A DNA stretch of 64,000 bases. Source: Bacteroidales bacterium. GTDB lineage: Bacteria > Bacteroidota > Bacteroidia > Bacteroidales > UBA932. Shown one piece after another: positions 36,915 to 52,277 of the stretch; positions within the stretch are counted from its first letter, which is position 1, and every line of letters begins with the position of its first letter. The notes beneath the pieces were generated by a model, which saw only the letters and a list, made by a program, of their open reading frames with translations, had not been told where the DNA came from and made no database searches. The position numbers were made by a program, and so were the translations under genes. Location of the stretch: NCBI GenBank assembly GCA_017634595.1, contig JAGBNC010000036.1:186001-250000 (forward strand), written 5' to 3'.

Positions 36915-36922
36915 ACAAATTT
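36915..36922 (-). promoter_or_regulatory. Possible promoter element TAAATTTG of tetR
   Basis: Minus-strand TAnnTTTG match overlapping the pump stop codon, 3 bases before the tetR ATG. It could give the regulator separate transcription. Confidence 0.4.
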
Positions 36923-39900
36923 AAGAATTTCTATGAAATAACCTGAAGATGACAGGTACAACCACCAGGTTGAGCAAGGTAGAGAGAAACATACCGCCTA
37001 TGATGACCCAGCCTATGCCGTTCCTGAGCTCTGCGCTTGATCCGGAAGCGAGCGCAACGGGTATCATGCCTATGATTGTCGAAAGTGCTGTCATCAGAAT
37101 CGGGCGGGTACGCATACGCACTGCACCCATCAACGCTTCATCCACAGAAAGCCCCGCAGCAAGCTGTTCGTTTGCGAAATCTACCAAAAGGATGGCATTC
37201 TTGGCAACCAACCCAATAAGCATGACGATTCCAAGCATTGCGAAGAGGTCCAGTGAGGAGCCGGACAAGGCAAGGGCCAGGATGGCTCCAAGTATCGAAA
37301 AAGGTATTGAGAGCATCACAACCAGAGGGTCAATCCACCCATTGTACAGCACAACAAGGGCCAGATACATCAATACAATAGACAAGAGTATAGCTATGCC
37401 CATAACGCGCATGGAATCTGACATTGCTTTCAAGTTTCCCATGCTTTCAATAGTGACTCCGGAGCTTCGGGCTCTCCCGGACACCTCGGAGAGGAAAAGA
37501 CTTGAAGCAGCACCCGGAGAGATTCCTACAACGTTTGAACTGATTGTAACTGAAGGATTTCGGTTGTAGCGTTCTATCCTGTTGGGGCCGGTTCCAAGTC
37601 TGACATCCGCAAACTGATCCAAGGTGATTCTGCTTCCCTGAGCATTCACAAAGGTCAAGGATGACACGTCGTCAATGCCACCGCGGAAGTGTTTGTCCGC
37701 CCTTACATTGATGTCATATTCATGTTCTCCTTTAACAAACTTCATTGAAGTATTACCTTGGAAAACCAGCTGGAGTGTGAGTCCCACATTGTCCAGAGTC
37801 AGGCCGAGTGCGGACATCTTGTCCCTATCCACCGACACCTTAACTTCCGGCATACCTGCACCTGTGGAGAGCTGTTGCTGGATAGTGCCGGGAATGGAGC
37901 GAAGGACATCCAGCGCATATTCTCCGAATACCGCCACGGAATCAGAATTGGTGCCGGAGATAATATACTCAACGGCAGAGCTGTTTCCAGAGCCGTGAAG
38001 CGCAGCAGCAAACATGCGGACTTTCGCATCGACCAGATAATCTGTAAGTTGCCTTCGCAAGGATGCTATATACAGCTTGACCGGTTTGTCGCGTTGTGAG
38101 GGCGGTACCATCTTGACGTCAAGCTGGGCGAGGTAGGGTGTGCCCTGAGTGCTTTCAGTATTGCTTCCGGTCTGGCCAACTACCGACACCACCTCAACTA
38201 TCTCTTTCTGGTTCTTCAGCCATCCTTCCGCACGGGAGACCTGAGCCGATGCTTCTTCAATAGAAATATCTTTAGGCATTTCAATGAGGACTGAGAACTG
38301 GCTCTTGTCTACGTCCGGCATGAATTCGAAGCCGATAAATCCGAGCGGGAACAGCAAACAGACAAGCACCGTTGCTGCCAGAACAATCAGCCCCACCCAT
38401 TTTTTATGCCCCAGAGCCCAATGCAGGATGCTGGCAATCCATTCGCTGAATCCAGTCATCATCTTGTCCCAAACATTGTTATTGTCAAGCCGCTCCAGCC
38501 GGCCATATCGGGATGTCAACAGCGGAACAAGGGTCAGTGCCGCCAGCAGACTGAACAGAATTGAGAATACGATGACTCCGCAGAACTGCCTCAATATGTC
38601 GGATACCAGGCTGTTTGTCAGCGCAATAGGAAGAAACACAATCACAAGTACAAGGGTAACTGTGATTACAGTCATTCCTATTTCGTTCATGGCGTCGCGT
38701 GTTGCCTGGACAGGATTCTTTCCCATTTCCATGTGCCGATAGACGTTCTCTATGACGACAATCGCATCATCTACAAGCACTCCGATAACCACAGAAAGCC
38801 CCAGAAGAGACATCAAGTTAAGCGAGAAATGGAACAGCTTCATCCCGATGAAGGTGCCGATCAGCGACATTGGCACTACCAGCATCACTATCAGAGCGTT
38901 TCTCCAGCTGTGAAGGAACAACAGGATTACAAGGGTGACCAGCAGGATTGCAATCATCAGGTCAAACAGGACAGATTTGATTGACTCGCGGGTGAACACA
39001 GAAGAGTCGCTGACTGTCGTAATCTTGAGGTTTGAATCTGAATAGGTGGCCTCAAGCTGCTGCACAACATCGGCCACAGCGTCGCTCAGATCGATGGCAT
39101 TGGCATCTCCCTGTTTGAATATGTGAAGCAGAACTGATTCCCTGCCGTTGACCCTGGCGATTTTGCTGACGTCCTTGGATGTTTCCAGCACTTCCGCTAC
39201 ATCACGCATACGGATCTGGGTACCGCTGGGCAATGTCATCAGGACAAGAGAGCGGATCTCATCGACAGAACTTAGCTTGCCTGAAAGGCGTATCGTCGTG
39301 TTAGTCTGCTCATTGCGCAGGCTGCCGGTAGGGACGTCCAAGTTGGCGCTCCTGATTACGCCAAGAACCTGCACCGGGCTTAATCCAAGAGCCTGCATAG
39401 CCTCCATGTCCAGATTGATTTGTATCTCTCGCCTGCGCTCGCCTGTGGCATTGATGCCTGCCATCCCGGGAATCCGCATGAGCTCAGGGATAATTTGCTC
39501 GTCAACCAAGTCGCTGAACTCCATGGATTCGAGGTCGGAACTTAACGACAGCGTCATTACCGCCTTGTCATCCACGGTGATCTTGTTGATGATTGGAGAG
39601 AGAACCGCAGGCGGCAGTTCGGCCTTCTTGGAGTTTATCTTGTTCTGCGCGTCAGTCATCGCCCTGTCGATATCTGTGCCGTAGATGAACGATACGAACA
39701 CCATGGACATACTTTCGAAGGAGAACGAGCGTATGGATTCCACTCCCTGCAATGAAGACAGGGCGTCCTCAAGCTTTCTGGTCAGCGAGCTCTCGACTTC
39801 GCCAGGAGATGCTCCCGGATAGATTACTTGGACGTTGAGCGTCGGTGGTGTGAATTTGGGCATCAGTTCCGACTGCATCGAGCTATAACCCAGCAAGCCA

Positions 39901-39971
39901 AGGATGGCGATAACCAGAAAAAGCACAATGACATAGACCGGGCGCCTTATAGATAGGTCAGAAATCTTCAT
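36921..39971 (-). CDS. RND efflux pump inner-membrane subunit (AcrB/MexB-type)
   Basis: A 1016-residue proton-driven pump of the HAE/hydrophobe type. It has a first membrane helix after MKISDLSIRRPVYV, two large periplasmic loops (about 35-330 and 555-850), and two clusters of membrane helices. The RND signature GVLVDDAIVVIENVYRHME, containing the essential Asp pair in helix 4, is present, as is the C-terminal MIGLVAKNAILLVDFANE. The third gene of the efflux operon, after the adaptor. Substrates cannot be read from sequence; multidrug or bile-acid export is typical. Confidence 0.93.
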   Translation of the reverse strand: MKISDLSIRRPVYVIVLFLVIAILGLLGYSSMQSELMPKFTPPTLNVQVIYPGASPGEVESSLTRKLEDALSSLQGVESIRSFSFESMSMVFVSFIYGTDIDRAMTDAQNKINSKKAELPPAVLSPIINKITVDDKAVMTLSLSSDLESMEFSDLVDEQIIPELMRIPGMAGINATGERRREIQINLDMEAMQALGLSPVQVLGVIRSANLDVPTGSLRNEQTNTTIRLSGKLSSVDEIRSLVLMTLPSGTQIRMRDVAEVLETSKDVSKIARVNGRESVLLHIFKQGDANAIDLSDAVADVVQQLEATYSDSNLKITTVSDSSVFTRESIKSVLFDLMIAILLVTLVILLFLHSWRNALIVMLVVPMSLIGTFIGMKLFHFSLNLMSLLGLSVVIGVLVDDAIVVIENVYRHMEMGKNPVQATRDAMNEIGMTVITVTLVLVIVFLPIALTNSLVSDILRQFCGVIVFSILFSLLAALTLVPLLTSRYGRLERLDNNNVWDKMMTGFSEWIASILHWALGHKKWVGLIVLAATVLVCLLFPLGFIGFEFMPDVDKSQFSVLIEMPKDISIEEASAQVSRAEGWLKNQKEIVEVVSVVGQTGSNTESTQGTPYLAQLDVKMVPPSQRDKPVKLYIASLRRQLTDYLVDAKVRMFAAALHGSGNSSAVEYIISGTNSDSVAVFGEYALDVLRSIPGTIQQQLSTGAGMPEVKVSVDRDKMSALGLTLDNVGLTLQLVFQGNTSMKFVKGEHEYDINVRADKHFRGGIDDVSSLTFVNAQGSRITLDQFADVRLGTGPNRIERYNRNPSVTISSNVVGISPGAASSLFLSEVSGRARSSGVTIESMGNLKAMSDSMRVMGIAILLSIVLMYLALVVLYNGWIDPLVVMLSIPFSILGAILALALSGSSLDLFAMLGIVMLIGLVAKNAILLVDFANEQLAAGLSVDEALMGAVRMRTRPILMTALSTIIGMIPVALASGSSAELRNGIGWVIIGGMFLSTLLNLVVVPVIFRLFHRNS

Positions 39972-39982
39972 GATAATACTAA

Positions 39983-41035
39983 TTACTTGTTAATAACCCT
40001 GACGGCAGCACCGTCGCCAACGTTCATAAGACCAGACTCTATAACTTGCTCACCCGCACTGATGCCGCTGAGCACTTCAATCCGGTCTCCTATCATCTCC
40101 CCAAGCTTGACTTCGCGACGCTGGGCCTTACCGTCCATAACCACAAACAGATTAGCAGCTTTGGCGCTGCCTACTATGCACTTGCGAGGAACCAGTATCC
40201 CTGTCCTCTCAGCAATTCCGGAGAAGTAAACTTTCAGATACATTCCGATATGAAGGTTGTCATTCGGGTCCAGAACTATCTCGACCGGGTAGTTAAGTCC
40301 TCTGTCTGTCTTTACGCCTATGTTGTTGATCTTTCCGGTGAATTCAGATCCCTGTACTTGATTGTCCGTTATCTTGACACGCATTCCTCTGGATATCAAC
40401 CTGATTCTTGATTCTGGGACATTGCAGATGAGTTTCAGAGCACTGTCGTCAACTATCTCGAACAGGGGGACGTTGGGAGCGAGCAGTGATCCTGGCTCAA
40501 CGAATCTGTTGTTGATAATCCCCGCCATTGGGGATTTGATGACGGAATTCTCATATTTCCAGCGGCTTGCAGTCATACGGCTTTCCGCAGCGACCAGCTG
40601 TGTGCGGATGTTGTCCATCTGCTGGTTGCTGACACCGCCGGCTGCGAATGAGCGTGCCAGGCGCTCCTCATCTTTCTTCAGAGCTTCGTACGCTGCCTTT
40701 GCCGCCTTGTAGTCGGCTTCGTAGAGTTCCGTGTCAATCATAAGCAGTGGCGTGCCTTTTCCAACGCGCTTGCCTTTATCAACATACACGCGATTCACAC
40801 GACCGGCAATATCCGAGACGTAATTAAGCTCATGAACTGCTTGGGTCATGCCGTTTGCACTGAACTCCAATCTGTAGTTTTCCTCTTCGGTGATGAACGT
40901 ACCTACCAGCTCTGTCTGGTCTGCTTGTTCAGCGTCAGCGTTCTGACGCTGCATTTTCCTTTTGTTGCTAAAAAGTAGAAGCAACATCCCGGCGATAATA
41001 AGCACGGCGATTATATATCCGACTATCTTTTTCAT
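39983..41035 (-). CDS. RND efflux periplasmic adaptor (membrane fusion protein)
   Basis: A 350-residue adaptor that bridges the RND pump and the outer-membrane channel. It has an N-terminal membrane anchor (YIIAVLIIAGMLLLLFS), a barrel-sandwich/lipoyl-like unit (DIAGRVNRVYVDKGKRVGKG, SPMAGIINNRFVEPG), a helical hairpin between them, and a beta-barrel (MRVKITDNQVQGSEFTGKI). It is 12 bases before the pump gene and 12 after the TolC-like gene, in one operon. Confidence 0.92.
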   Translation of the reverse strand: MKKIVGYIIAVLIIAGMLLLLFSNKRKMQRQNADAEQADQTELVGTFITEEENYRLEFSANGMTQAVHELNYVSDIAGRVNRVYVDKGKRVGKGTPLLMIDTELYEADYKAAKAAYEALKKDEERLARSFAAGGVSNQQMDNIRTQLVAAESRMTASRWKYENSVIKSPMAGIINNRFVEPGSLLAPNVPLFEIVDDSALKLICNVPESRIRLISRGMRVKITDNQVQGSEFTGKINNIGVKTDRGLNYPVEIVLDPNDNLHIGMYLKVYFSGIAERTGILVPRKCIVGSAKAANLFVVMDGKAQRREVKLGEMIGDRIEVLSGISAGEQVIESGLMNVGDGAAVRVINK

Positions 41036-41047
41036 ACTATACGTTGT

Positions 41048-42406
41048 TTAATGATTGATGTCCGTTATTGTCCCATCTGCCTTCTTGAGGTCGATGTGGG
41101 CCTTGATACAGTTGTTCAAGGCATTGATATAATTGACTTTAGACTTGATCAGCGAGGAGTTTGCATTGATAAGGTCCGCCAAGGAAGATATACCCTCATT
41201 GTAGTTTCTCTCCGTCACCTCATAAACCTCACGGGCAAGACCCATGTTCTCTTTTTGGGTAAGCATAGCCTTCCTGTTCTGTTCAAGTTGCATAAGGGCG
41301 TTTGAATAGGCCATATTCAGGGATTGTGTCAGCATCCTTCCGTCGTATTCAGCCTTTAGCTGCTCAATGTGAGCTTTCTTTATCTTGGCATTTTTCGACA
41401 TTCCGGAGAATATCGGCACCCTCATATTCACAGTGACCATGGACACAGGAAAACTATGGCAGCTTTTCCTGTAGAAGTCATCTCCCATGTAGTTCATTGA
41501 ATAATTAGCAGTCAGAGTGACCACAGGGAGTGTCTCGAACTTCGCTGACTTGTACTGCAAGTCGAGCATATTCTGCTGTTTCTGGAACAGCTTGTATGGA
41601 AGCTGCTCCGTAACCTCGTACCGGCCAATCCTGGATGAGAACACCATGTCTTCCAACATGCCGACATCGATGGGCTCTATTTCAATGTTTTCCTCCATCG
41701 GGAACCCCATCTGAAGCTTGAGAAGCTTCTTCTGAAATTCAATGGCATTGTTCATTGCCGCACGTTCGGTCTCGAGATTAGTCCTGGAGACTGATATTTG
41801 CTTGGCGTCAATTGGACGCACCAGACCAACGTCTCGATTGACTTCTATCATCTCAAGGGTCTTGTCCATCAGAGAGATACTCTCGTCGAACTGTTCAACT
41901 GCATAGCTGAGGATCTGGATACCATAGTAAAGACCGGCAGTCTGCGCAATAACATCCTCAGTGGATATTTCCAGCCCGAGTTCAGCCATTTCTCCTACGA
42001 TCTTTGTTATGCGCACTGCATTGAACAGAGACATATTCAGCAACTGCTGGCTAAGGTTCGCCCCCCAGTTCGCATTTAAATCCATGCCCATCGTGACCGT
42101 CATATACTTGTCGGCATCAGGGTCCATCATCGATTCCGGCATCATTGAGTTGATGAAGTTAGGCATGGCGATGGTCGTCTTCTGGATGTTCCTCGTCATC
42201 CCGACTGACGCGTTTATTTGTGGCAGCAAAGCGCCGACCACTTCTCGTCTTGATTGGATAGACGTCTCCAGACTTAGCCTGTCTTTTTTCAGGCTTTCGT
42301 TGTTTTCTACCGCATAATCCAAGCAGGATTTTAGGCTGTACTTCTCTTGCGCAGAAAGGACTAAAGGCAGGACAGTGAGAATTAATGTAAATAGTATTCT
42401 GATCAT
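41048..42406 (-). CDS. TolC-family outer-membrane efflux channel
   Basis: A 452-residue outer-membrane factor. A signal peptide (ILFTLILTVLPLVLSAQ) precedes the OEP repeat pattern of long helices and short strands. The conserved N-terminal SLKSCLDYAVENNESLK and the later YNEGISSLADLINANSSLIK are typical. First gene of the channel-adaptor-pump-tetR operon. A TACCTTTG promoter and an inverted/direct repeat array stand just upstream. Confidence 0.92.
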   Translation of the reverse strand: MIRILFTLILTVLPLVLSAQEKYSLKSCLDYAVENNESLKKDRLSLETSIQSRREVVGALLPQINASVGMTRNIQKTTIAMPNFINSMMPESMMDPDADKYMTVTMGMDLNANWGANLSQQLLNMSLFNAVRITKIVGEMAELGLEISTEDVIAQTAGLYYGIQILSYAVEQFDESISLMDKTLEMIEVNRDVGLVRPIDAKQISVSRTNLETERAAMNNAIEFQKKLLKLQMGFPMEENIEIEPIDVGMLEDMVFSSRIGRYEVTEQLPYKLFQKQQNMLDLQYKSAKFETLPVVTLTANYSMNYMGDDFYRKSCHSFPVSMVTVNMRVPIFSGMSKNAKIKKAHIEQLKAEYDGRMLTQSLNMAYSNALMQLEQNRKAMLTQKENMGLAREVYEVTERNYNEGISSLADLINANSSLIKSKVNYINALNNCIKAHIDLKKADGTITDINH

Positions 42407-42507: not shown

Positions 42508-44316
42508 CTATCCGCTGCAAGAAGCGTCGAGGACCTCGGCGAGGTCGCGGACGGGGCGCTCGGAATAGCGGCTGAAGGTGGTCAGACACAAGGGGCAGGC
42601 GGTAGCGATGGCATCGGCGCGGCTCTCATAGAGGTTCTTAAGAGCATTGCGCGTCATGGCTTCACGCTGGCTGAAGTCAAGCGTCAAACTGCCAAGCGAT
42701 CCGCCGCAGCAGATACTCTCTTCCCTTGTCTTGGGTGCTTCGGCTATACCGGCAGCCTGACCGATCAGCTTGCGGGGCGAGTCGTATATTCCGCAGCCGC
42801 GCCCGAGTTCACAAGGATCGTGATAGACGTAGCAGACATCGCCCTTGGTAAGATGGAGCCTCCCATGCTCAACCAGTTCGCTGAAATAGTCAGTATAGTT
42901 TACAACCCTCACGCCAGGGAGTGAATAACGCTCCGTGAATATCTTATAACAAATGGGGCAACTTAGCACAAGAGTGTCGGCCCCGCTTGAAAGGATTATC
43001 TCTTCATTCTTATGTATCAAGCCAATAGCCGCGTCGATCCGTCCTGCAGTCAGAAGCGGACGCCCACAGCAGAGGCCCTCATCCCGGTCCATCCACACAA
43101 AGTCCACACCGGCCTTGTGCATAAGCGAAGTTACAGCCTTCCCGATGGACGGAGTGAGCCTGGTCATGCAACCGGAGAAATACAGCACTTTGGAGCCCTT
43201 GGCAGCTGCAACAAGAGGAGCCACATCGATTCCGGAATAATCCGGTGTAAGTCCGTAACGGCGCGACGCCCTCTGGGCAATACGCAGTTTAGGCCCCTCC
43301 ACACCCACCTGACACACGGCCTCACATTTGCCGCAAAGCAAACATTTGTCGGAGATTTCCTCAATCCTCTTCTCGTTTCCGCGCCGGATCTGACGGTTCA
43401 GATAGACTGTGCAGTCTTTGATATTCACCTTCTTAACGCTCATCGGACAAGCGTCGATGCACACGCCGCAACCCGGGCAGCTCAGCACTTCCACCTTTGC
43501 GAATCCCTTGCGGGGATGGCGTATCTTTAGGCCGGCGTTGCGCATGGGGATGAGCATCATCTCGGCAGGAATATGCATGTAACGGGTAAACGGGAGCACA
43601 CACATAAACACGCCCAAGGCAATACTGTAGGCCCACCAGGTAGGAAGCATGTTGAGGTCGTTGCCCAGGAACTGCCGGAATACCCAGTTGGCTGGAATGG
43701 TGAGGAAAGAGCCACCGCTGATATGGGCGGTAAAGCTCTCGGCCAGAAGCCGGAGAGGGAAAATGGCCCAGAGAGAATAGAGGCCAACACGGTCGAGGGC
43801 GCTGGGGCGCGTTGTACGGCGCATTCCGAATATACGTGACCTCACCCTCTTGATCATAGCCAGCGCTATCCCGGTCAGTATGAGCAGGAGGAAGAAATCC
43901 ATCAGGAAAAACAGTACGGCCCCGCCTATGGTAGATTCATTCTCGGCGACAAAGTAGTTGAAGAAGATAGGATAATACAGCAGGCGCACACGCTCCGGGC
44001 AATATACCATCACTTCGATGTGCCCAAGAAGTATGATCATGAACCAGCCGAAAGCTATGCTCGAATGCATGAAGCCCAGCATGCGGTTACGTTTCCATAA
44101 CTTCACGTGCAGCAGGCAATTGGCAAATATATCCCAAATATTCTTAAGAGCCGTAGACGGAGTTATGAGCGAGAGAAGGAACTTCCTACGGTCCTGTCTT
44201 GAAAGCTGGAAAAGGATACGGAATATCCCGTACGCGCAGTAACCCAGCACGAAAATCATCCCGACAAGGAACGGCAGGACAAAGGGATCGAAACCAGTGG
44301 CAAACCTTTCTCTCAT
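42508..44316 (-). CDS. Membrane cytochrome-b-like/HdrD fusion of a heterodisulfide-reductase-like complex
   Basis: A 602-residue protein. Residues 1-240 hold about five membrane helices with several histidines (LLGHIEVMVYCP, FTAHISGG), resembling NarI/DsrM/HdrE heme-b subunits. Two [4Fe-4S] motifs follow (CPGCGVCIDACP, CLLCGKCEAVCQ). Then two complete CCG modules: FSGCM with LCCGRP and CPIC, and HDPCELG with ICCGGS and CPLC. This combines HdrE and HdrD in one chain, so electrons could pass between quinone and the Fe-S centres. I chose the ATG at 44316, which overlaps the upstream stop as ATGA; a start 8 codons earlier is possible. Confidence 0.85.
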   Translation of the reverse strand: MRERFATGFDPFVLPFLVGMIFVLGYCAYGIFRILFQLSRQDRRKFLLSLITPSTALKNIWDIFANCLLHVKLWKRNRMLGFMHSSIAFGWFMIILLGHIEVMVYCPERVRLLYYPIFFNYFVAENESTIGGAVLFFLMDFFLLLILTGIALAMIKRVRSRIFGMRRTTRPSALDRVGLYSLWAIFPLRLLAESFTAHISGGSFLTIPANWVFRQFLGNDLNMLPTWWAYSIALGVFMCVLPFTRYMHIPAEMMLIPMRNAGLKIRHPRKGFAKVEVLSCPGCGVCIDACPMSVKKVNIKDCTVYLNRQIRRGNEKRIEEISDKCLLCGKCEAVCQVGVEGPKLRIAQRASRRYGLTPDYSGIDVAPLVAAAKGSKVLYFSGCMTRLTPSIGKAVTSLMHKAGVDFVWMDRDEGLCCGRPLLTAGRIDAAIGLIHKNEEIILSSGADTLVLSCPICYKIFTERYSLPGVRVVNYTDYFSELVEHGRLHLTKGDVCYVYHDPCELGRGCGIYDSPRKLIGQAAGIAEAPKTREESICCGGSLGSLTLDFSQREAMTRNALKNLYESRADAIATACPLCLTTFSRYSERPVRDLAEVLDASCSG

Positions 44317-44660
44317 TTCTTCTCTTCGTATATGCGGCACAGACTAAGGATCAGATGCCTGGTATTAATGCCCCTGGGGCAGACCATGCTGCACTTCCCG
44401 CACAGCATACAAGCCGACAGCATTTTTCTCACTTCACCATGTCCTTCTGCGGAGGCTCTTTCCCGCTGCAGATCCAGAATGACTTTGCGGACACTCATGC
44501 CTGACCATGGCCCGGCAGTACAGGTCGCGGTGCAGGAACCGCAGGACATGCAAGTACGCACGCCGGGCTCCAGCTTCTCAAGCTTTCTGTACAGAGTCAA
44601 ATCCACCTCGTCAAGCCTGACGGCGGAACTCCTGGAAAGACCGAATCCGAAGTCAATCAT
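44313..44660 (-). CDS. HdrC-like ferredoxin subunit (second copy)
   Basis: A 115-residue protein with two [4Fe-4S] motifs, CMSCGSCTATCTAG and CMLCGKCSMVCPRG, the arrangement of HdrC. The N-terminal 35 residues are unlike ferredoxins. It overlaps the HdrA-like gene by 8 bases and the membrane subunit by 4. It is a natural electron wire between the HdrA-like flavoprotein and the membrane HdrD-like part; this is inference from order and family. Confidence 0.85.
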   Translation of the reverse strand: MIDFGFGLSRSSAVRLDEVDLTLYRKLEKLEPGVRTCMSCGSCTATCTAGPWSGMSVRKVILDLQRERASAEGHGEVRKMLSACMLCGKCSMVCPRGINTRHLILSLCRIYEEKK

Positions 44661-45672
44661 TACCGTTCAAATAGTTACGTATGTCAAGCGCAGCAGCGCG
44701 GGCTTCGGCCACCGTCTCCGGGACTGTCTTGGTGCCGGTGCAGGCGCCGGCGAAGAAAATGCCGGGACGGCTTGACTCATTGATACGGAAAATGTTGTCC
44801 CTGCTGCGCAGGAAGCCGTCGGAATCGACCTCGGCACGTACCATCGATGCCAGTCCTGCAGTGTCTTCGTTGCAAAGCATACCGGCCATGAGTACAAGCA
44901 AGTCGGCTTTGAGCTTGACCTGGCGGCCGGCAAGAGTATCTTCTGCCTTAAGTATCACCCGCCCGTCAATATCTTCACTTACCTCCGACACGCGGCCGCG
45001 GACAAAATGCACTCCGTAGTCTCGCTGGGCGTTGATGTAGAAGTCTTCGTACTTCTTCCCGAACAAGCGAAGGTCCATGTAGAAGCACCATATCTCAGCA
45101 TCGGGAAATCTCTCTTTCATCTCTATTGCCTGCTTGACAGCTGTCATGCAACAGACCTTGGAGCACTGCGGGTTGCCTGCCTTGAGGTCACGCGAGCCGA
45201 CACAGTGCACGAAAGCGATATTCGAAAGATTGTCGGGTATCCTGTCATCCTCTCCTGTATTGAACCAGTACTCCAGATCGGAATTCGTAATCACGCGATC
45301 ATATACGCCATAGCCGTATTCCTCCTTGCGCGAAGCTTCGAAAAGGCGGAAGCCGGATGCTATCAGCACGGCCCGGCAAAGAAGTCCGGTACCGTTGGTC
45401 AGCATCACACTGAATCCATCTTTGAGCCTGTTCATGGAGGCCACCTGTGTCTTGAGATACACCGTTATGCCGTCCAGACTCTCCGACATGCGCTCTATGA
45501 GCGATGAAGCGCTGAGCATATCAGGGAACAGCTTATGCCAGCCGGCCACATGACCGCCCAGATGATCCGATTTCTCTACAATTACCGGCTCACAGCCAAG
45601 CAGACGCAGCTGCCGCGCCGCTTCCATGCCGGCCACTCCCCCACCTATAATAAGTACGGTCTGACTATCCAT
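44653..45672 (-). CDS. HdrA/QmoA-like FAD protein
   Basis: A 339-residue flavoprotein. N-terminal FAD loop VLIIGGGVAGMEAARQLRLL, EKSDHLGGHVAGW, and the HdrA-type cluster motif HCVGSRD followed by CSKVCCMTA. A second binding segment ends in GIFFAGACTGTKTVPETVAE. It lacks the extra N- and C-terminal Fe-S domains of methanogen HdrA and is closer in size to QmoA-type proteins. Third gene of the operon, 3 bases after the HdrB-like gene. No hydrogenase or MvhD-like gene is nearby, so electron bifurcation is not supported by this locus. Confidence 0.85.
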   Translation of the reverse strand: MDSQTVLIIGGGVAGMEAARQLRLLGCEPVIVEKSDHLGGHVAGWHKLFPDMLSASSLIERMSESLDGITVYLKTQVASMNRLKDGFSVMLTNGTGLLCRAVLIASGFRLFEASRKEEYGYGVYDRVITNSDLEYWFNTGEDDRIPDNLSNIAFVHCVGSRDLKAGNPQCSKVCCMTAVKQAIEMKERFPDAEIWCFYMDLRLFGKKYEDFYINAQRDYGVHFVRGRVSEVSEDIDGRVILKAEDTLAGRQVKLKADLLVLMAGMLCNEDTAGLASMVRAEVDSDGFLRSRDNIFRINESSRPGIFFAGACTGTKTVPETVAEARAAALDIRNYLNGND

Positions 45673-45675
45673 AGA

Positions 45676-46746
45676 CTAAAAACATTTGAGGCAGCTCGGA
45701 AGCGCCGGTTTCATAAGCTTCTCTTTATTGATACCAAGGTACTTAGCATCGGGATCATATTCCACTCCCATCTTGTCCAGAAGGGGCTCGACAGCCACCT
45801 GGTGTATCTGCAGGCCAAGGTCCCAAGGGTCGTAACCCAGCACCAGACCTGCAAGTTCTTCGTAGGTAAACACAGGTATTCCGAAGCCATTTTGCCCATA
45901 GGTCTTGCCTGTCTGTTCGGAGATCACATACTGCCAGCGGTCAAGGAAATACGGGCAGCCGGGACAATTGGTTATAATGGCGTCAGGATGATATGGCTCC
46001 ATAGACTCGAACTTCTTGTAAGTGTTCGAGACACTGTAGCCCCGGTTGGCCTTCACCATGTACTGTCGGAAACCAAAACCGCAGCAATGCCGGCGCTCCG
46101 GATAGTCTATCACCTCGCCGCCCCATGAGTCAACCATACCGCTCAGGACGCAAGGGTACTCGGCACCGCCTATTCCCTTGTGAGGGAACATTTTAGAATA
46201 ATGGCAGCCAATATGTTCCACAATCTTCAGTGGCTTCCCGGTACGGACATCGACCAGCCTGTACTTGGCCCGTTCAGCAATTTCGTTGCGGAATTTGTAC
46301 ACAAGGTCGCTGGCATGGGCTACATATTCAGGCTTTTCAAACTCGCGCCTGGTGGCTTTCCAGAGATTCTCGCGTATGCGCGCTTCAAGCTCGGGGAACT
46401 CCCTCCAGGTCTCCAGTATCTCGGTATAATTGCCGAAGGACGTGATGCATGAGGTCACGAGGTTCTTGTATCCCGCTTCGGTCATAAGCGCAAACTGACG
46501 GGCTACAATGGTCATAGCCGTCTCCTGCGGTATGGTGTCGCAGTGGTAGGCTATGCCACCGCAGGTAGTATGGTGCTCGCTTTCATAGATATCCTTTCCC
46601 AGAAGGTCCCTGCAGATTGCGAGGAAGTACTTCTCCGATGCCGGGAAGAAGCTCTGACGGATACAGCTGCGCACATAAAACCAGCCGTCGGATGGTATCT
46701 CTTTCTGGTAATCGGACCAGATCTTCTGCTTGCCCTGATATATCAT
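45676..46746 (-). CDS. HdrB-like CCG-domain subunit
   Basis: A 356-residue protein with two CCG-type regions. The second is complete: HIGCHYS, RHCCGFGFRQ and NCPGCPYF, expected to bind a non-cubane [4Fe-4S] cluster where disulfides are reduced. The first is degenerate: it reads TTCGGIAYH where CCG is expected, and TSCITSF in place of CxxC. In Hdr complexes HdrB is the catalytic subunit. The natural disulfide here is unknown, since Bacteroidales do not make coenzyme M or B. Second gene of the operon. Confidence 0.85.
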   Translation of the reverse strand: MIYQGKQKIWSDYQKEIPSDGWFYVRSCIRQSFFPASEKYFLAICRDLLGKDIYESEHHTTCGGIAYHCDTIPQETAMTIVARQFALMTEAGYKNLVTSCITSFGNYTEILETWREFPELEARIRENLWKATRREFEKPEYVAHASDLVYKFRNEIAERAKYRLVDVRTGKPLKIVEHIGCHYSKMFPHKGIGGAEYPCVLSGMVDSWGGEVIDYPERRHCCGFGFRQYMVKANRGYSVSNTYKKFESMEPYHPDAIITNCPGCPYFLDRWQYVISEQTGKTYGQNGFGIPVFTYEELAGLVLGYDPWDLGLQIHQVAVEPLLDKMGVEYDPDAKYLGINKEKLMKPALPSCLKCF

Positions 46747-46749
46747 TAT

Positions 46750-47448
46750 CTATTCTTCGTTATTGAAATGACCGGGAGAACAATGGCTGAAAGTATATTC
46801 AGCATACTCATCCATATCCATCCCCATTTGCTCTGCCTTGGCCTTGGAATACTTTTCCACCAATTCCATACGTTCGGCTCCGCCGGTGACCTCGAATATT
46901 GCCTTAAGCTCGTCCAGGTCTTCTTGAGGGATATGCCGGAGCACCCCCGGGCCTTTTCCTTGATAGTTGGCTCCCAGACGGCCATAGACTTGCTTTTTAT
47001 TGTTCAGAACCCACTCGAATACGGGGCCAGATTCCGGATGATCGCTATAGGAAAACGTTTCAGGATGGACGCAGTAACCGTAGTTGAGGACATTGCCGTT
47101 AATGGCTTTTGTGAGCGGATAAATCTGACGTCCCTTTTCAGACTCGGTGAAAAAACCGAGGCGGATGCTCAAGTCTCTAAGGGCCATCACCACAAGCCCG
47201 GGGCCGTTTTTACGCGGGCAGCGGGTCACGCAGCTCATGCACTCGCCGCAGTACCATATCGTCTCGCTTTTAAGCAAAGCCTCGATAGCATCGTTATCCT
47301 TGGTCTGGACTATTGACACTATCTTCCGGGGGTCGTACCGGTAGAACTCAGCTGCAGGGCAAATGGCAGTACAGGTGCCACAGTTAATGCAGGTGTGGAA
47401 ACCTTCTTTAAAACGGTAGTCCTTATTTAGCTCCTCAAAGTAATTCAT
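46750..47448 (-). CDS. HdrC-like Fe-S subunit with C-terminal extension
   Basis: A 232-residue protein, the first gene of the hdr-like operon. Two [4Fe-4S] motifs, CINCGTCTAICPA and CGECMSCVTRCPR, lie in the first 85 residues, with the PRKIV and SIWYCGEC-type spacing of HdrC (here TIWYCGECM). The remaining 140 residues are not part of the ordinary HdrC domain (PLTKAINGNVLNYG and a charged helical end). It is 3 bases before the HdrB-like gene. The promoter TATCTTTG lies 47 bases upstream. Confidence 0.85.
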   Translation of the reverse strand: MNYFEELNKDYRFKEGFHTCINCGTCTAICPAAEFYRYDPRKIVSIVQTKDNDAIEALLKSETIWYCGECMSCVTRCPRKNGPGLVVMALRDLSIRLGFFTESEKGRQIYPLTKAINGNVLNYGYCVHPETFSYSDHPESGPVFEWVLNNKKQVYGRLGANYQGKGPGVLRHIPQEDLDELKAIFEVTGGAERMELVEKYSKAKAEQMGMDMDEYAEYTFSHCSPGHFNNEE

Positions 47449-47495
47449 TATCCGATAGCTGTGAACGGGCTCAAATCGCCGCTAAATTGTTGTCG

Positions 47496-47503
47496 CAAAG
47501 ATA
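47496..47503 (-). promoter_or_regulatory. Promoter element TATCTTTG of the hdr-like operon
   Basis: Minus-strand TAnnTTTG match 47 bases before the first HdrC-like ATG. Confidence 0.65.
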
Positions 47504-47758: not shown

Positions 47759-50734
47759 ATGAAAAGAATCCTTGCATTCGTAATGATGCTTCTAAGCATA
47801 GCAGCCTATGCTCAGAAGCGCACCATAACGGGCACGGTAGTAGATGGGGCAGGTTACCCGGTCATCGGTTTGATGGTCCTGGAACATGGCACCCAGAACG
47901 GAGCCGTGACCGGTACAGACGGACAATATTCCATCAGTGTGAGCGGCCCTTCCGCCGTCCTGGTTTTCGATGCTCTTGGCTATACCACCGTGACCGAAAC
48001 CGTGGGAGACCGCTCCGTCATTAACGTTACGGTAGCCGAAGAGGCCCTGACACTGGATGCAGTCGTGGCCATAGGATATGGTTCGGTGAGAAAGAAAGAC
48101 CTCACCACCGCCGTTTCTATCGTCTCCACCGAAGATGTCAATTTGCGACCCGTGACGGAGGCATCCGGCCTTATCCAGGGCAAGGTGGCCGGTGTGCAGG
48201 TACAGCAGACTTCCGGCCAGCCCGGTTCCGGCATGACCGTCCGTGTCCGTGGCGCCAGCTCCATCTCCTCGTCCAATGACCCGCTCTATGTGGTGGACGG
48301 TGTCCCCGTGGGCGAAGGCGGCTATGCCATCGCCTACCTATCCCCCAACGACATTGAGAGCATGCAGATCTTGAAAGATGCATCCTCCGCTGCCATCTAC
48401 GGTTCCAGAGCCGCCAATGGTGTAGTGCTCATCAACACTAAACAGGGCTCCAGGAACCAAGCTCCACACATCAGCTTCTCCTGCTTCGTGGGCCTGAACT
48501 CGGTGCCCAAGACCTTCCGCGTGATGAACACCGAAGAATACCGAGAGTACGCCAAAGAGTTCAATATCAACGTCCCCGAGACGGAGACCGACAAGCATGA
48601 CTGGGCCAAGGAAACCTTCAAAGTGGGTGTGAACCAGAACTACCAGATCGGCGTTTCCGGAGGCACCGACAAGATCCGCTACTACCTGGGAGCAGGTTAC
48701 AACAACGAGTCCGGTGTGCTTCCGGTGTCCTTTGCCAAGCGTGTGAATACGCGCGCAAGCTTTGACGTAGATCTATACAAATGGCTCACCGTGGGCACCA
48801 ACATCGCCTACTCTTCCTACAAGAGCAACGGCATCATCTCGGGTACAGGTGCCAACCGCGCCGGTGTGGTCCTGTCGGTGGTGAACACCCCCACCTATGT
48901 CGAAATCTGGGCCGACGAAGCCCACACCATGTACAACTCCAATTTCTATGGCTTGGGCGGCTACACACACCCGCTGGAGAACCTGGCCCGCAGCGAGAAC
49001 AATTTCTCCTCCACCGACCGCGCCATCATGAGCGCCTTTGCCCAGATCAACTTCTCTAAACACCTGAATTTCAAGAGCACAGTTTCCATGGACCGCCGCT
49101 GGGTGCACAGCTACTCCTTCCTGGACCCGCTCAAGACCTCCTACGGCCGCACACAGCACGGCGAGGCCTCCGACAGCCGCAGCGACGACCGGCGCATGGT
49201 GTACGACAACATCCTTACCTACGCTAATACTTTTGCCGAAAAACACAATCTGGAAGTGATGGGCGGCACCTCCGCCACCACCTCTGACTGGCAGCAGCTG
49301 AGCGCTTCCCGCAGCCACTTCTCCCCGGAGTACGGCAATGCCATATGGGGCCTGAACGGCGGTAACAAAGGCGGTCTCCGCGGCCAGAGCACCGGCTGGG
49401 CCAAGTGGACAATCCTCTCCTTCCTGGGCCGCGCCGCGTACAACTTCGACAGCAGATACTACCTTACCGTCAACTTCCGCGCTGACGGCTCATCCAAGCT
49501 TGCACCCGGCCACAAATGGGGTTTCTTCCCCTCCGCATCGGCCGCCTGGCGCATTTCTGCCGAAGATTTCCTGAGCGACGCCGAATGGCTTACCGACCTT
49601 AAACTCCGCGTGGGTTGGGGCCAGCAAGGCAACCAGTCCGGACTGGGCGACTATGCCTGGGTGCAGACTTACAACACCAACTACTTCGACTGGACCAAAA
49701 CCGAGTTCGCCGACGCGGTGCCCACCATTGGCGACATTTCTTCCATGGGTAACAAGGACCTCACCTGGGAGACGACGACCCAGACAAACGTTGGTATTGA
49801 CTATTCCATGTTCGGAGGCCGCCTGTCCGGTACCATTGACGCTTATTACAAGAAGACCGACAACCTGCTCATGTGGGTTCCCATGCCTTCTCCCTATCCG
49901 TCCCTGTACCGCAATGAGGGCGCCATGAGCAACTGGGGTTTGGAATTCGCAGTATCCGCCACCCCCGTGGTAAAGAACGGCTTTGAGTGGCGCACCGACT
50001 TCAACATTTCCCTCAACCGCAACCGGCTGGAGAAACTGACCATACGCCCCGTCTATACCTACGGCAACGTGGGAGACCAGCTGGGAGACTCGGTAATCCG
50101 CCTGGAAGTAGGTCGTCCGCTGTCAAACTTCTACGGCTACCAGACCGAAGGCATTGATCCGGAGACCGGCCTGGTCATCTATAAGGACTTGGACAACAAC
50201 GCCGTAATCAACGACTCCGATAAGACATGGATAGGCGACGCCAACCCGTCATTCATCTTCGGCTGGACCAACAATCTCGCCTACAAGGGCCTAAGCCTCA
50301 ACCTGCTTTTCACCGGCAGCGTCGGCAACAAGATATTCAATGTGTCCAAGATTGACATGATAGGCATGCGCAATGGTGCCAACCAGTTGCACGATGCAGT
50401 GCGCCGCTGGAGGATCCCCGGCCAGATAACCGACATTCCCAAGGCAGGAGAGCCGGACAACGTGAAGGCCTCCGACATGTGGGTGGAAGACGGTTCATAC
50501 CTGAAACTCAAGAACATCACCCTCTCTTACGACATTACCGGCAAATGGCTCCGCAAAGCCAACATTGCCCGTATCCAGCCATATGTAACCCTGGCCAACT
50601 TCGTGACCTTCACCAAGTATAGCGGCTACGACCCCGAAGTGAGCCAGAACACCGACGCTACGTCAATGGGGCTGGACTTCGGTACCTATCCCAACAACCG
50701 CAACGTCACCTTTGGCGTAAATGTAGATTTCTAA
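47759..50734 (+). CDS. susC: SusC/RagA-type TonB-dependent outer-membrane transporter
   Basis: A 991-residue outer-membrane importer for oligosaccharides. A signal peptide (ILAFVMMLLSIAAYA) precedes a carboxypeptidase-regulatory-like domain (about 22-105, TITGTVVDGAGYPVIG) and a plug domain (PVTEASGLIQGKVAGVQVQQ, VRVRGASSISSSNDPLYVVD, SAAIYGSRAANGV). The rest is a 22-strand barrel ending in FGVNVDF. It pairs with the SusD lipoprotein 13 bases downstream, which acts as its lid. First gene of the locus. Confidence 0.95.
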   Translation: MKRILAFVMMLLSIAAYAQKRTITGTVVDGAGYPVIGLMVLEHGTQNGAVTGTDGQYSISVSGPSAVLVFDALGYTTVTETVGDRSVINVTVAEEALTLDAVVAIGYGSVRKKDLTTAVSIVSTEDVNLRPVTEASGLIQGKVAGVQVQQTSGQPGSGMTVRVRGASSISSSNDPLYVVDGVPVGEGGYAIAYLSPNDIESMQILKDASSAAIYGSRAANGVVLINTKQGSRNQAPHISFSCFVGLNSVPKTFRVMNTEEYREYAKEFNINVPETETDKHDWAKETFKVGVNQNYQIGVSGGTDKIRYYLGAGYNNESGVLPVSFAKRVNTRASFDVDLYKWLTVGTNIAYSSYKSNGIISGTGANRAGVVLSVVNTPTYVEIWADEAHTMYNSNFYGLGGYTHPLENLARSENNFSSTDRAIMSAFAQINFSKHLNFKSTVSMDRRWVHSYSFLDPLKTSYGRTQHGEASDSRSDDRRMVYDNILTYANTFAEKHNLEVMGGTSATTSDWQQLSASRSHFSPEYGNAIWGLNGGNKGGLRGQSTGWAKWTILSFLGRAAYNFDSRYYLTVNFRADGSSKLAPGHKWGFFPSASAAWRISAEDFLSDAEWLTDLKLRVGWGQQGNQSGLGDYAWVQTYNTNYFDWTKTEFADAVPTIGDISSMGNKDLTWETTTQTNVGIDYSMFGGRLSGTIDAYYKKTDNLLMWVPMPSPYPSLYRNEGAMSNWGLEFAVSATPVVKNGFEWRTDFNISLNRNRLEKLTIRPVYTYGNVGDQLGDSVIRLEVGRPLSNFYGYQTEGIDPETGLVIYKDLDNNAVINDSDKTWIGDANPSFIFGWTNNLAYKGLSLNLLFTGSVGNKIFNVSKIDMIGMRNGANQLHDAVRRWRIPGQITDIPKAGEPDNVKASDMWVEDGSYLKLKNITLSYDITGKWLRKANIARIQPYVTLANFVTFTKYSGYDPEVSQNTDATSMGLDFGTYPNNRNVTFGVNVDF

Positions 50735-50747
50735 ACATGGCAAGCTT

Positions 50748-52277
50748 ATGAAAAAGATATATATCGCATTTGCAAGCGTTCTCGTACTCTCTGCCTGCAC
50801 TTTGGACCTCTTCCCCATCACGGCCTACAACGAGGCCAATGTGGAACTTACCGGCGACGAATCAGGCAACACATCCCAGTATAACACCCGCTCCGATATG
50901 GAGGGTCTGCGCAATTCCTTGTACAATTCCTGGGTTAAGGACATTCAGGAAATGGGTCTGGAAGACTGGCTTGTTTACTCGGAAACGCGCGCCGACAACG
51001 CCTACTGCGGCACTTCCACCCCTGAAATCATGGCCCTGGAAGGCAACAAGCAGGACGGCACCAACAAGAACATCACCCGCGACTGGAACTGGTATCAGCG
51101 CCAGGTATCCAACGCCAACCAGATTATTTGCAATATAGACCGTATTGCCGAGACAGATGCCAGCTTGAGCAGCGCCGAACGCGACCAGTGGAAGGCGGAA
51201 GCCATGATCTGGCGCGCTTTCTGCTTTTTCCGCCTCACCCTGTTGTGGGGAGACGCACCCATGGTGCTCTCCATCCCGCCGGCCATTAACGCTGCCAACG
51301 TGGAAGAGGTGTATCCCCTCTACTTTCCTGACCGCGTGCCGCTGGAGCAGGTGTATGCCAAACTCGTAGAAGACCTGACCTGGGCTGCGCAGTTCGCGCC
51401 TAAGGTGAATGCCGCCAACAAGATGCTCATGTCCGATGCCTTTGCCAAGGGCTTGCTGGCCCGTGTATATGCGGAGAATACGCCCCTGCGCGACTGGGAC
51501 AAAGTAGCTCGTTACTGCTCAGATGTAGAGGGCATGGGCTTCTCGCTGGAACCAAAGTACGCCGACCTTTGGGCCTACGAGCCCGGTGACAATGGAGATG
51601 CCCGCCGCAACAGTCCCGAATCGATCTTCGAAGTCCAGTGGGTTTCCAAGTCCAGCGGAAACTGGGTGTACATGATGTACCACCGCAATGCCTACAATCC
51701 CAACGACAACTTCTCCTGGGCCAAATGGACCACCCCGTCCCGCAACCTGATCAAGGCCTACCAGGACGAGGGAGACTCGGAACGCCTAAACGCCTCCGTG
51801 ATTTGGGATTCCTGCAGCTGGAGCAACTATTATGAGTCGGACCATTACGCATTCATGCACAAGATGCCCACCAATGTGAGCAGCATCCTGGTAATGCGTC
51901 TGGCCGAAATCTACCTGCTGCATGCTGAAGCACTGGCCTGCACCAACGACCTTGCCGGTGCTGCCTCTTACGTGAACAAGGTTCGTGAACGCGTCCACCT
52001 GGATCCCATCGCCACGCCCGCGTCCCAAGACCAGGCCATCGACCTCATTCTCAAGGAGCGCCGGCTGGAACTGGCCTTCGAGGGCTTCCGTTTCTTTGAC
52101 CTGGTGCGCCATTCAACCCCGGAGAACGACCGCATCAAGAAGGTGCACGACGCTATGAATGCTGAAGACAGCTACTGGCAGAAGCGCATTCCGATGGATC
52201 CTACGCACTACCTGTTGCCGGTTCCCACCGAAGCTCTGGACAACAACCCCAACCTGTCCCAAAATGCCGGTTACTAG
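50748..52277 (+). CDS. susD: SusD/RagB-type surface glycan-binding lipoprotein
   Basis: A 509-residue lipoprotein (signal peptide and lipobox LSAC). The SusD N-terminal helical domain runs from about residue 20 to 230. The TPR-like region includes WRAFCFFRLTLLWGDAPMVL, and the C-terminal part carries RLAEIYLLHAEALA and the conserved LILKERRLELAFEGFRFFDL. It holds glycans at the cell surface for SusC. Its sequence places it with SusD proteins; the ligand is inferred from the adjacent GH30 enzyme. Confidence 0.94.
   Translation: MKKIYIAFASVLVLSACTLDLFPITAYNEANVELTGDESGNTSQYNTRSDMEGLRNSLYNSWVKDIQEMGLEDWLVYSETRADNAYCGTSTPEIMALEGNKQDGTNKNITRDWNWYQRQVSNANQIICNIDRIAETDASLSSAERDQWKAEAMIWRAFCFFRLTLLWGDAPMVLSIPPAINAANVEEVYPLYFPDRVPLEQVYAKLVEDLTWAAQFAPKVNAANKMLMSDAFAKGLLARVYAENTPLRDWDKVARYCSDVEGMGFSLEPKYADLWAYEPGDNGDARRNSPESIFEVQWVSKSSGNWVYMMYHRNAYNPNDNFSWAKWTTPSRNLIKAYQDEGDSERLNASVIWDSCSWSNYYESDHYAFMHKMPTNVSSILVMRLAEIYLLHAEALACTNDLAGAASYVNKVRERVHLDPIATPASQDQAIDLILKERRLELAFEGFRFFDLVRHSTPENDRIKKVHDAMNAEDSYWQKRIPMDPTHYLLPVPTEALDNNPNLSQNAGY

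Follow-up and report, generated by a model that had tools for sequence, protein, structure and literature searches.

The described system closest to the locus analyzed here is sHdr, a heterodisulfide reductase (Hdr) type system that in Hyphomicrobium denitrificans has the gene order hdrC1B1A-hyp-hdrC2B2 together with LbpA (PMC6067878; PMC11582611), to which it is tied (PMC6067878), and that oxidizes sulfur to sulfite in this organism (PMC11582611); papers are cited here and below for the excerpts that were available. Our locus is a five-gene Hdr-type operon, termed Hdr5, in a stretch of 64,000 nucleotides from a Bacteroidales bacterium (assembly GCA_017634595.1, contig JAGBNC010000036.1, positions 186,001 to 250,000), which we call the window. 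In related genomes the same five genes lie within operons for capnine (sulfonolipid) biosynthesis, and elsewhere in the order their place is taken by the sulfite-forming reductase CysH. We consider it somewhat probable that the product of the operon is an sHdr-like complex, anchored in the membrane, that oxidizes sulfane- or thiol-level sulfur to sulfite, delivers the electrons to menaquinone and supplies the sulfite for cysteate and sulfonolipids.

The operon consists of five intact, co-directional open reading frames on the minus strand, running from 47448 to 42508 in the order C1-B-A-C2-ED. Gaps of 3 bases separate C1 from B and B from A, whereas A overlaps C2 and C2 overlaps ED. The gene set, its order and its tight spacing are those of the original prediction, made from the sequence of the window. 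The features are as follows.

46750..47448, minus strand: HdrC1-like protein (C1), 232 residues, with two [4Fe-4S] sites, based on the reading frame, Pfam/NCBIfam matches and cysteines kept in homologues
45676..46746, minus strand: HdrB-like protein (B), 356 residues, with a complete C-terminal noncubane site and a degenerate N-terminal site (C28, C62 and C100 kept)
44653..45672, minus strand: short HdrA-like flavoprotein (A), 339 residues, carrying C157/C170/C174/C175
44313..44660, minus strand: HdrC2-like protein (C2), 115 residues, with two [4Fe-4S] sites
42508..44340, minus strand: ED, 610 residues, a membrane cytochrome-b-like domain followed by two [4Fe-4S] sites and two complete CCG sites
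47496-47503, minus strand: TATCTTTG, a possible Bacteroidales -7 box (TAnnTTTG) by motif match

Pfam and NCBIfam matches describe C1 and C2 as HdrC-like proteins with two [4Fe-4S] sites each, B as a protein with one Pfam CCG match, A as HdrA/FAD-like, and ED as carrying two CCG matches and Fer4 matches behind its membrane domain; no NCBIfam Hdr model reaches its curated cut-off for any of the five proteins. The residues expected to hold the cofactors are almost invariant. The eight cluster cysteines of C1 are present in 164/164 homologues (C73 in 163), the eight of C2 in 145/145, C157/C170/C174/C175 of A in 155/155, and the ten CCG cysteines of ED in 114-115 of 115, while C28, C62 and C100 of the degenerate site of HdrB are kept in 168-169 of 169. 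The AlphaFold model of HdrB was poor (mean predicted local distance difference test score 63.9, with residues 1-72 under 50) and was not used for fold searches.

The core of the operon appears sHdr-like, judging from its short A and the degenerate N-terminal site of its HdrB. When compared with solved structures, A is best matched by 6tjr (349 residues), which we take to be sHdrA, over residues 5-330 (E-value 1e-60, 208.6 bits); the margin over methanogen HdrA (202.5 bits) is small, but 6tjr alone matches over the full length. The degenerate CCG site of HdrB resembles that of sHdrB1 in two comparators (L154 and L155), the only two on which this comparison rests and which, unlike our HdrB, do not have C261 of the second site. 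These comparators belong to the same phylum (family f16) and, according to family scans made for L154, carry HdrC1-B-A, a TfrB-like C2B2 protein of 428 residues, and EtfBA-like, EtfD-like, DsrE-family and GcvH/LbpA-like genes, a set that led us to regard them as sHdr-type systems. The operon also follows the sHdr order C1-B1-A-C2-B2 (PMC6067878), with the B2 part fused to the membrane domain. Differences are nevertheless evident: no hyp gene lies between A and C2, which overlap here, a membrane fusion in which both CCG sites are complete stands in for the B2 part, and the operon keeps company with genes for sulfonolipids rather than for sulfur oxidation.

The ED protein sets the operon apart. 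Its histidines 78, 92 and 256 are invariant in 115/115 homologues, and in the structure model His 92 and His 256 lie at the ends of long helices, the arrangement expected of a subunit that ligates heme. The N-terminal part of the model aligns with NarI, and the best full-length fold match is EtfD of Mycobacterium smegmatis (9ojn), at about 19% identity. These results support ED as a predicted quinone-type membrane subunit with putative b-type heme, as originally proposed. The modeled likeness to EtfD extends over the whole length of ED, but identity is low, no Etf genes are present in the operon, and the partner here would be Hdr subunits. The two complete CCG sites and the predicted b-type membrane part with its three invariant histidines recall methanogen HdrDE, in which however E and D are not fused into one chain. 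Methanogen HdrABC shares with the operon the CCG noncubane sites and relatives of HdrC and HdrA, but A does not have the extra ferredoxin domains, is 339 residues long versus 643-671, and scores 246 bits against a curated cut-off of 1100. In QmoABC, too, an HdrA-like flavoprotein is joined by a membrane subunit on the quinone side; however, the qmoC model is matched by C1 only (47.5 bits, cut-off 300), and no AprAB context was seen. Consequently, the view that the set combines soluble HdrABC and membrane HdrDE is too simple, since A is short and 6tjr-like, B has an sHdrB1-like site and ED folds like EtfD.

The five genes are conserved as a block. A scan of genome contigs with HdrB gave 533 relatives, from which the best 80 loci were kept (the named loci), these being nearest relatives and so no even sample. 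In 75 of the 80, matches to all five genes had identical order and direction, a few of these loci being cut at a contig end, and in the remaining five the contig stops after A or C2. The block was also present in two loci titled Alistipes sp. (L072 and L077), a genus in which its occurrence had been anticipated. In an even sampling of the order (247 Bacteroidales genomes), 79 genomes had HdrB and 77 had ED, which we use below as the mark of Hdr5. Across the phylum, only 4/296 genomes had an HdrB match; besides the window's genome these were three whose matches show 29-31% identity, two of them being the comparators L154 and L155. Loci of a second, paralogous type contain a C1-B pair with no A, C2 or ED beside it (L115, L117, L119, L121, L123, L125, L129, L161, L165 and L169, the last of which may be a split operon); in several of them (e.g., L119, L121, L123, L129 and L165) the pair sits among genes for Nitro_FeMo-Co, DUF134, a ferredoxin-bearing MinD-type ATPase, CGGC, OsmC and a Cys/Met PLP enzyme. 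At L145 (1-13155), the five-gene block is immediately preceded by two HdrA-like genes and a single gene containing HdrC, which read as Qmo-like, and is directly followed by a gene for a Cys/Met PLP-type enzyme.

In 19 of the 80 named loci the block is located inside capnine operons, flanked by CFAT, SDR, CapA and/or cysteate synthase; three further named loci, where nothing but a weak SDR match (26-34%) lay close by, were not counted. Six of the 60 loci L114-L173 are also flanked by capnine genes, which brings the different arrangements to at least six. The names CFAT, CapA and CapC follow PMC10191378, PMC11211663 and PMC9304779, and CFAT was assigned by family (serine palmitoyltransferase-like, below the cut-off of that model) and by company. 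Nine loci share the arrangement CFAT-SDR-[Hdr5]-cysteate synthase with short gaps (L064, L066, L070-L072 and L076-L079). In two representatives (L114 and L131), the flanking cysteate synthase matches TIGR03844 with 465 and 443 bits (cut-off 325), whereas CapA-like proteins, the other synthase type, are threonine-synthase relatives under that cut-off. CapA occurs in the arrangements CFAT-CapA-SDR-[Hdr5] (L026), CFAT-CapA-[Hdr5]-OsmC (L163, where the OsmC-family gene closes the operon), CFAT-CapA-[Hdr5]-SDR (L168) and CFAT-CapA-SDR-VOC-[C1-C2-ED-B-A] (L150), and L157 reads [Hdr5]-CFAT. The VOC-family gene of L150 sits near C1, and capnine clusters repeatedly contain a VOC/glyoxalase-fold protein of about 350-370 residues, whether they carry Hdr5 or CysH (L150, L211, L213, L214, L215 and L218). 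When mapped onto a tree of HdrB with 92 rows, linkage to capnine genes must change seven times, and well supported branches force six of these changes, gains and losses not being distinguished; L156, on a very long branch, was labelled with the five-gene rows though it is not one. Among the 77 genomes with ED, the block was within 10 kb of capnine genes in seven (G303, G517, G375, G478, G402, G336 and G435), where we estimate about 0.9 by chance.

In other Bacteroidales capnine clusters, CysH (APS/PAPS reductase) occupies the slot of Hdr5. CysH was identified in these clusters with NF002537, while the names CysD, CysN and transporter come from reading; the ten loci were chosen for proximity of CapA and CysH out of 36 genomes with both. 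Three have CFAT-CysH-CapA (L209, L211 and L212), L210 has two extra genes before CapA, five combine a CysH-CysD-CysN run with CapA (L213, L214, L216, L217 and L218), and L215 reads CapA-transporter-CysH-CFAT. Two of the ten genomes (G317 and G460) also have Hdr5 elsewhere. The two systems share a genomic slot and, if our reading is right, the product sulfite, but CysH is an unrelated protein that starts from activated sulfate.

The exchange was also evident in genome counts. CysH (NF002537, E-value up to 1e-30) was found in 156 of the 247 genomes (154 over cut-off), the archaeal-type cysteate synthase in 67 (66 over cut-off), the CapA type in 46 and CFAT in 175. Hdr5 was present in 21/29 genomes with a synthase and no CysH, 20/84 with both, 32/72 with CysH and no recognized synthase, and 4/62 with neither. 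Among synthase-bearing genomes the negative association of Hdr5 with CysH gave a Fisher p of 9e-6, uncorrected for phylogeny, and collapsing genomes to family and CysH state gave p = 0.007 (13/20 vs 15/52). This split by CysH is a post hoc test, added after the plain association of Hdr5 with any synthase had proved weak. Within the 21 genomes with synthase and Hdr5 but no CysH, 17 had no PF01507 match at 1e-8, three had matches of 42-49 bits in longer frames, and one (G450) had a CysD-grade match of 149 bits, the other 20 having no match of CysD or CysH grade; three control genomes had two or three matches each, the best at 162-187 bits.

The window's own genome fits this pattern. It has a cysteate synthase (410 bits, over cut-off), a CFAT (55% identity) with an SDR beside it, and, in profile searches, no CysH or PF01507 match, CysD included. 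In a genus-mate (L131) the block stands between an RNA-methyltransferase-like gene and the cysteate synthase (names from reading). In the window's genome, relatives of these two flanking genes still lie near each other, but what separates them is a transporter-like gene and not Hdr5; the operon may thus have left this site.

Linkage to capnine genes in relatives and exchange with CysH therefore point to sulfite production, and thus sharpen the original prediction, which had left donor and function open. In the mechanism we propose, the five proteins would form a single complex in which a carrier-bound or small-molecule persulfide would be oxidized at CCG sites in B, in ED or in both. Electrons would pass via A, through its flavin adenine dinucleotide (FAD), and the HdrC clusters to the membrane part of ED and then to menaquinone, and cytoplasmic sulfite would feed cysteate synthase and then CFAT and SDR in capnine/sulfonolipid biosynthesis. 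This would take place in anaerobic Bacteroidales lacking sulfite formation from sulfate. Cysteate synthase uses phosphoserine and sulfite. Because the potentials of sulfite/sulfide (about -116 mV) and menaquinone (about -74 mV) are close, the proposed oxidation would be near equilibrium and would be pulled by the use of sulfite.

Several observations weigh against sulfite supply as the function, and part of them speak for a general electron conduit from thiols, NADH or ferredoxin to menaquinone, as first envisaged, with the capnine neighborhood incidental or a habit of certain lineages. In 70 of the 77 Hdr5 genomes no capnine gene was seen within 10 kb of the block, 52 of the 77 also carry CysH, and ED resembles EtfD, a general quinone-side protein. 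However, the several independent capnine arrangements and the near absence of Hdr5 where synthase and CysH are both missing argue against a conduit of this kind, and we regard it as unlikely. Other points bear on sulfite supply directly. The capnine genes of the window's genome lie on contigs other than that of the operon. No LbpA is found at the operon, and each of 10 genomes tested has one GcvH-type protein over cut-off. Over the 247 genomes, the association of Hdr5 with any synthase is not significant (41/77 vs 72/170, p = 0.13), and contrasts within families are mixed, about three to four in favor (f96, f121 and f164, with f68 in part), four in the opposite direction (f54, f70, f108 and f165) and three with no difference. 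A recognized synthase is missing in 36 of the 77 Hdr5 genomes, though 35 of the 36 have a CFAT-like gene, and eight genomes with synthase and no CysH have no Hdr5; some of these eight are fragmented assemblies, while G298 and G494, with cysteate synthase and neither CysH nor Hdr5, are rather complete. Given the 52 genomes with CysH and the 36 with no recognized synthase, either sulfite supply is not the sole role everywhere or a further cysteate source was missed. The 35 genomes with Hdr5 and CFAT but neither synthase type could possibly use a third cysteate source or another CFAT substrate; among 18 such loci (L178-L195) no recurring candidate for a third synthase was seen beside CFAT, whose neighborhood often included a conserved rpoZ/coaBC/recN-like run, as named by reading.

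The direction of electron flow is drawn solely from resemblance, and the same gene context and CysH exchange would fit a complex that works reductively, splitting an S-sulfonate (thiosulfate, S-sulfocysteine or polythionate) with electrons from menaquinol or NADH to release sulfite for cysteate. CysH is itself a reductive sulfite former, and the two complete CCG sites of ED resemble those of disulfide-cleaving Hdr. Against this, the core is closest to sHdr, an oxidizing system, no recurring gene for handling thiosulfate or S-sulfonates was seen beside the block in the neighbors examined, and menaquinol is a weak reductant for thiosulfate; we find reductive release decidedly doubtful. Finally, a redox step on the lipid itself, after 3-ketocapnine, is very improbable, since CysH, no lipid enzyme, occupies the same slot elsewhere and is negatively associated with Hdr5 among synthase-bearing genomes, even though CFAT and SDR, and not the synthase alone, are linked to the block and CFAT is present in 73/77 Hdr5 genomes versus 102/170 of the others.

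Some details of the locus deserve mention. ED is listed as starting with the GTG at 44340; the consensus of its homologues starts with the ATG at 44316, which is likely the true start by this comparison and would give an ATGA overlap with the stop of C2. The element TATCTTTG lies 47 bases before the start of C1 and matches TAnnTTTG, which we take to be the Bacteroidales -7 box. The window holds 39 such motifs against 23.4 expected from shuffles, an excess that fits promoter use in Bacteroidales. The single promoter originally assigned to the operon is thus present as a box, but because the motif is frequent in the window it is only a plausible candidate. The operon is flanked by an RND-type efflux set (36921-42406) and a SusC/SusD pair (47759-52277), which look unrelated (names from reading); as had been noted, no hydrogenase, Dsr or methanogenesis gene is present among the neighbors examined around it in the window.

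In the openly licensed literature of PubMed Central, we found no paper pairing 'sulfonolipid' with 'heterodisulfide', which is no proof of novelty, and, among the matches listed, none containing 'sulfonolipid', 'cysteate synthase' and 'sulfite' together; 'heterodisulfide' with 'Alistipes' gave nothing on this topic by title. The available part of a study of Black Sea isolates describes an Hdr set as possible sulfide detoxification, and capnine lipids, the two not being linked to each other (PMC11129491). The excerpts of PMC10191378, PMC11211663 and PMC9304779 hold no statement on the source of sulfite for cysteate in strict anaerobes. According to the excerpt of PMC11211663, the reductase genes of Alistipes finegoldii are not clustered with the cfat and cys genes, so that clustering is not general in Alistipes.

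We propose, with belief and doubt in equal measure, that the operon encodes a menaquinone-linked sulfite synthase of anaerobic Bacteroidales, in which an sHdr-type core has been rewired onto an EtfD-like quinone subunit, serves biosynthesis rather than energy metabolism, and replaces sulfate activation in providing sulfonolipids with their sulfonate group. If true, this would be the first sHdr-type system that we know to be employed in biosynthesis. Among gut lipids, the sulfonolipids of Alistipes and Odoribacter have been reported to affect immunity, and our reading names a candidate enzyme for the supply of sulfite to cysteate in strict anaerobes. If correct, it would provide a function for a redox operon that 77 of the 247 sampled genomes of Bacteroidales carry.

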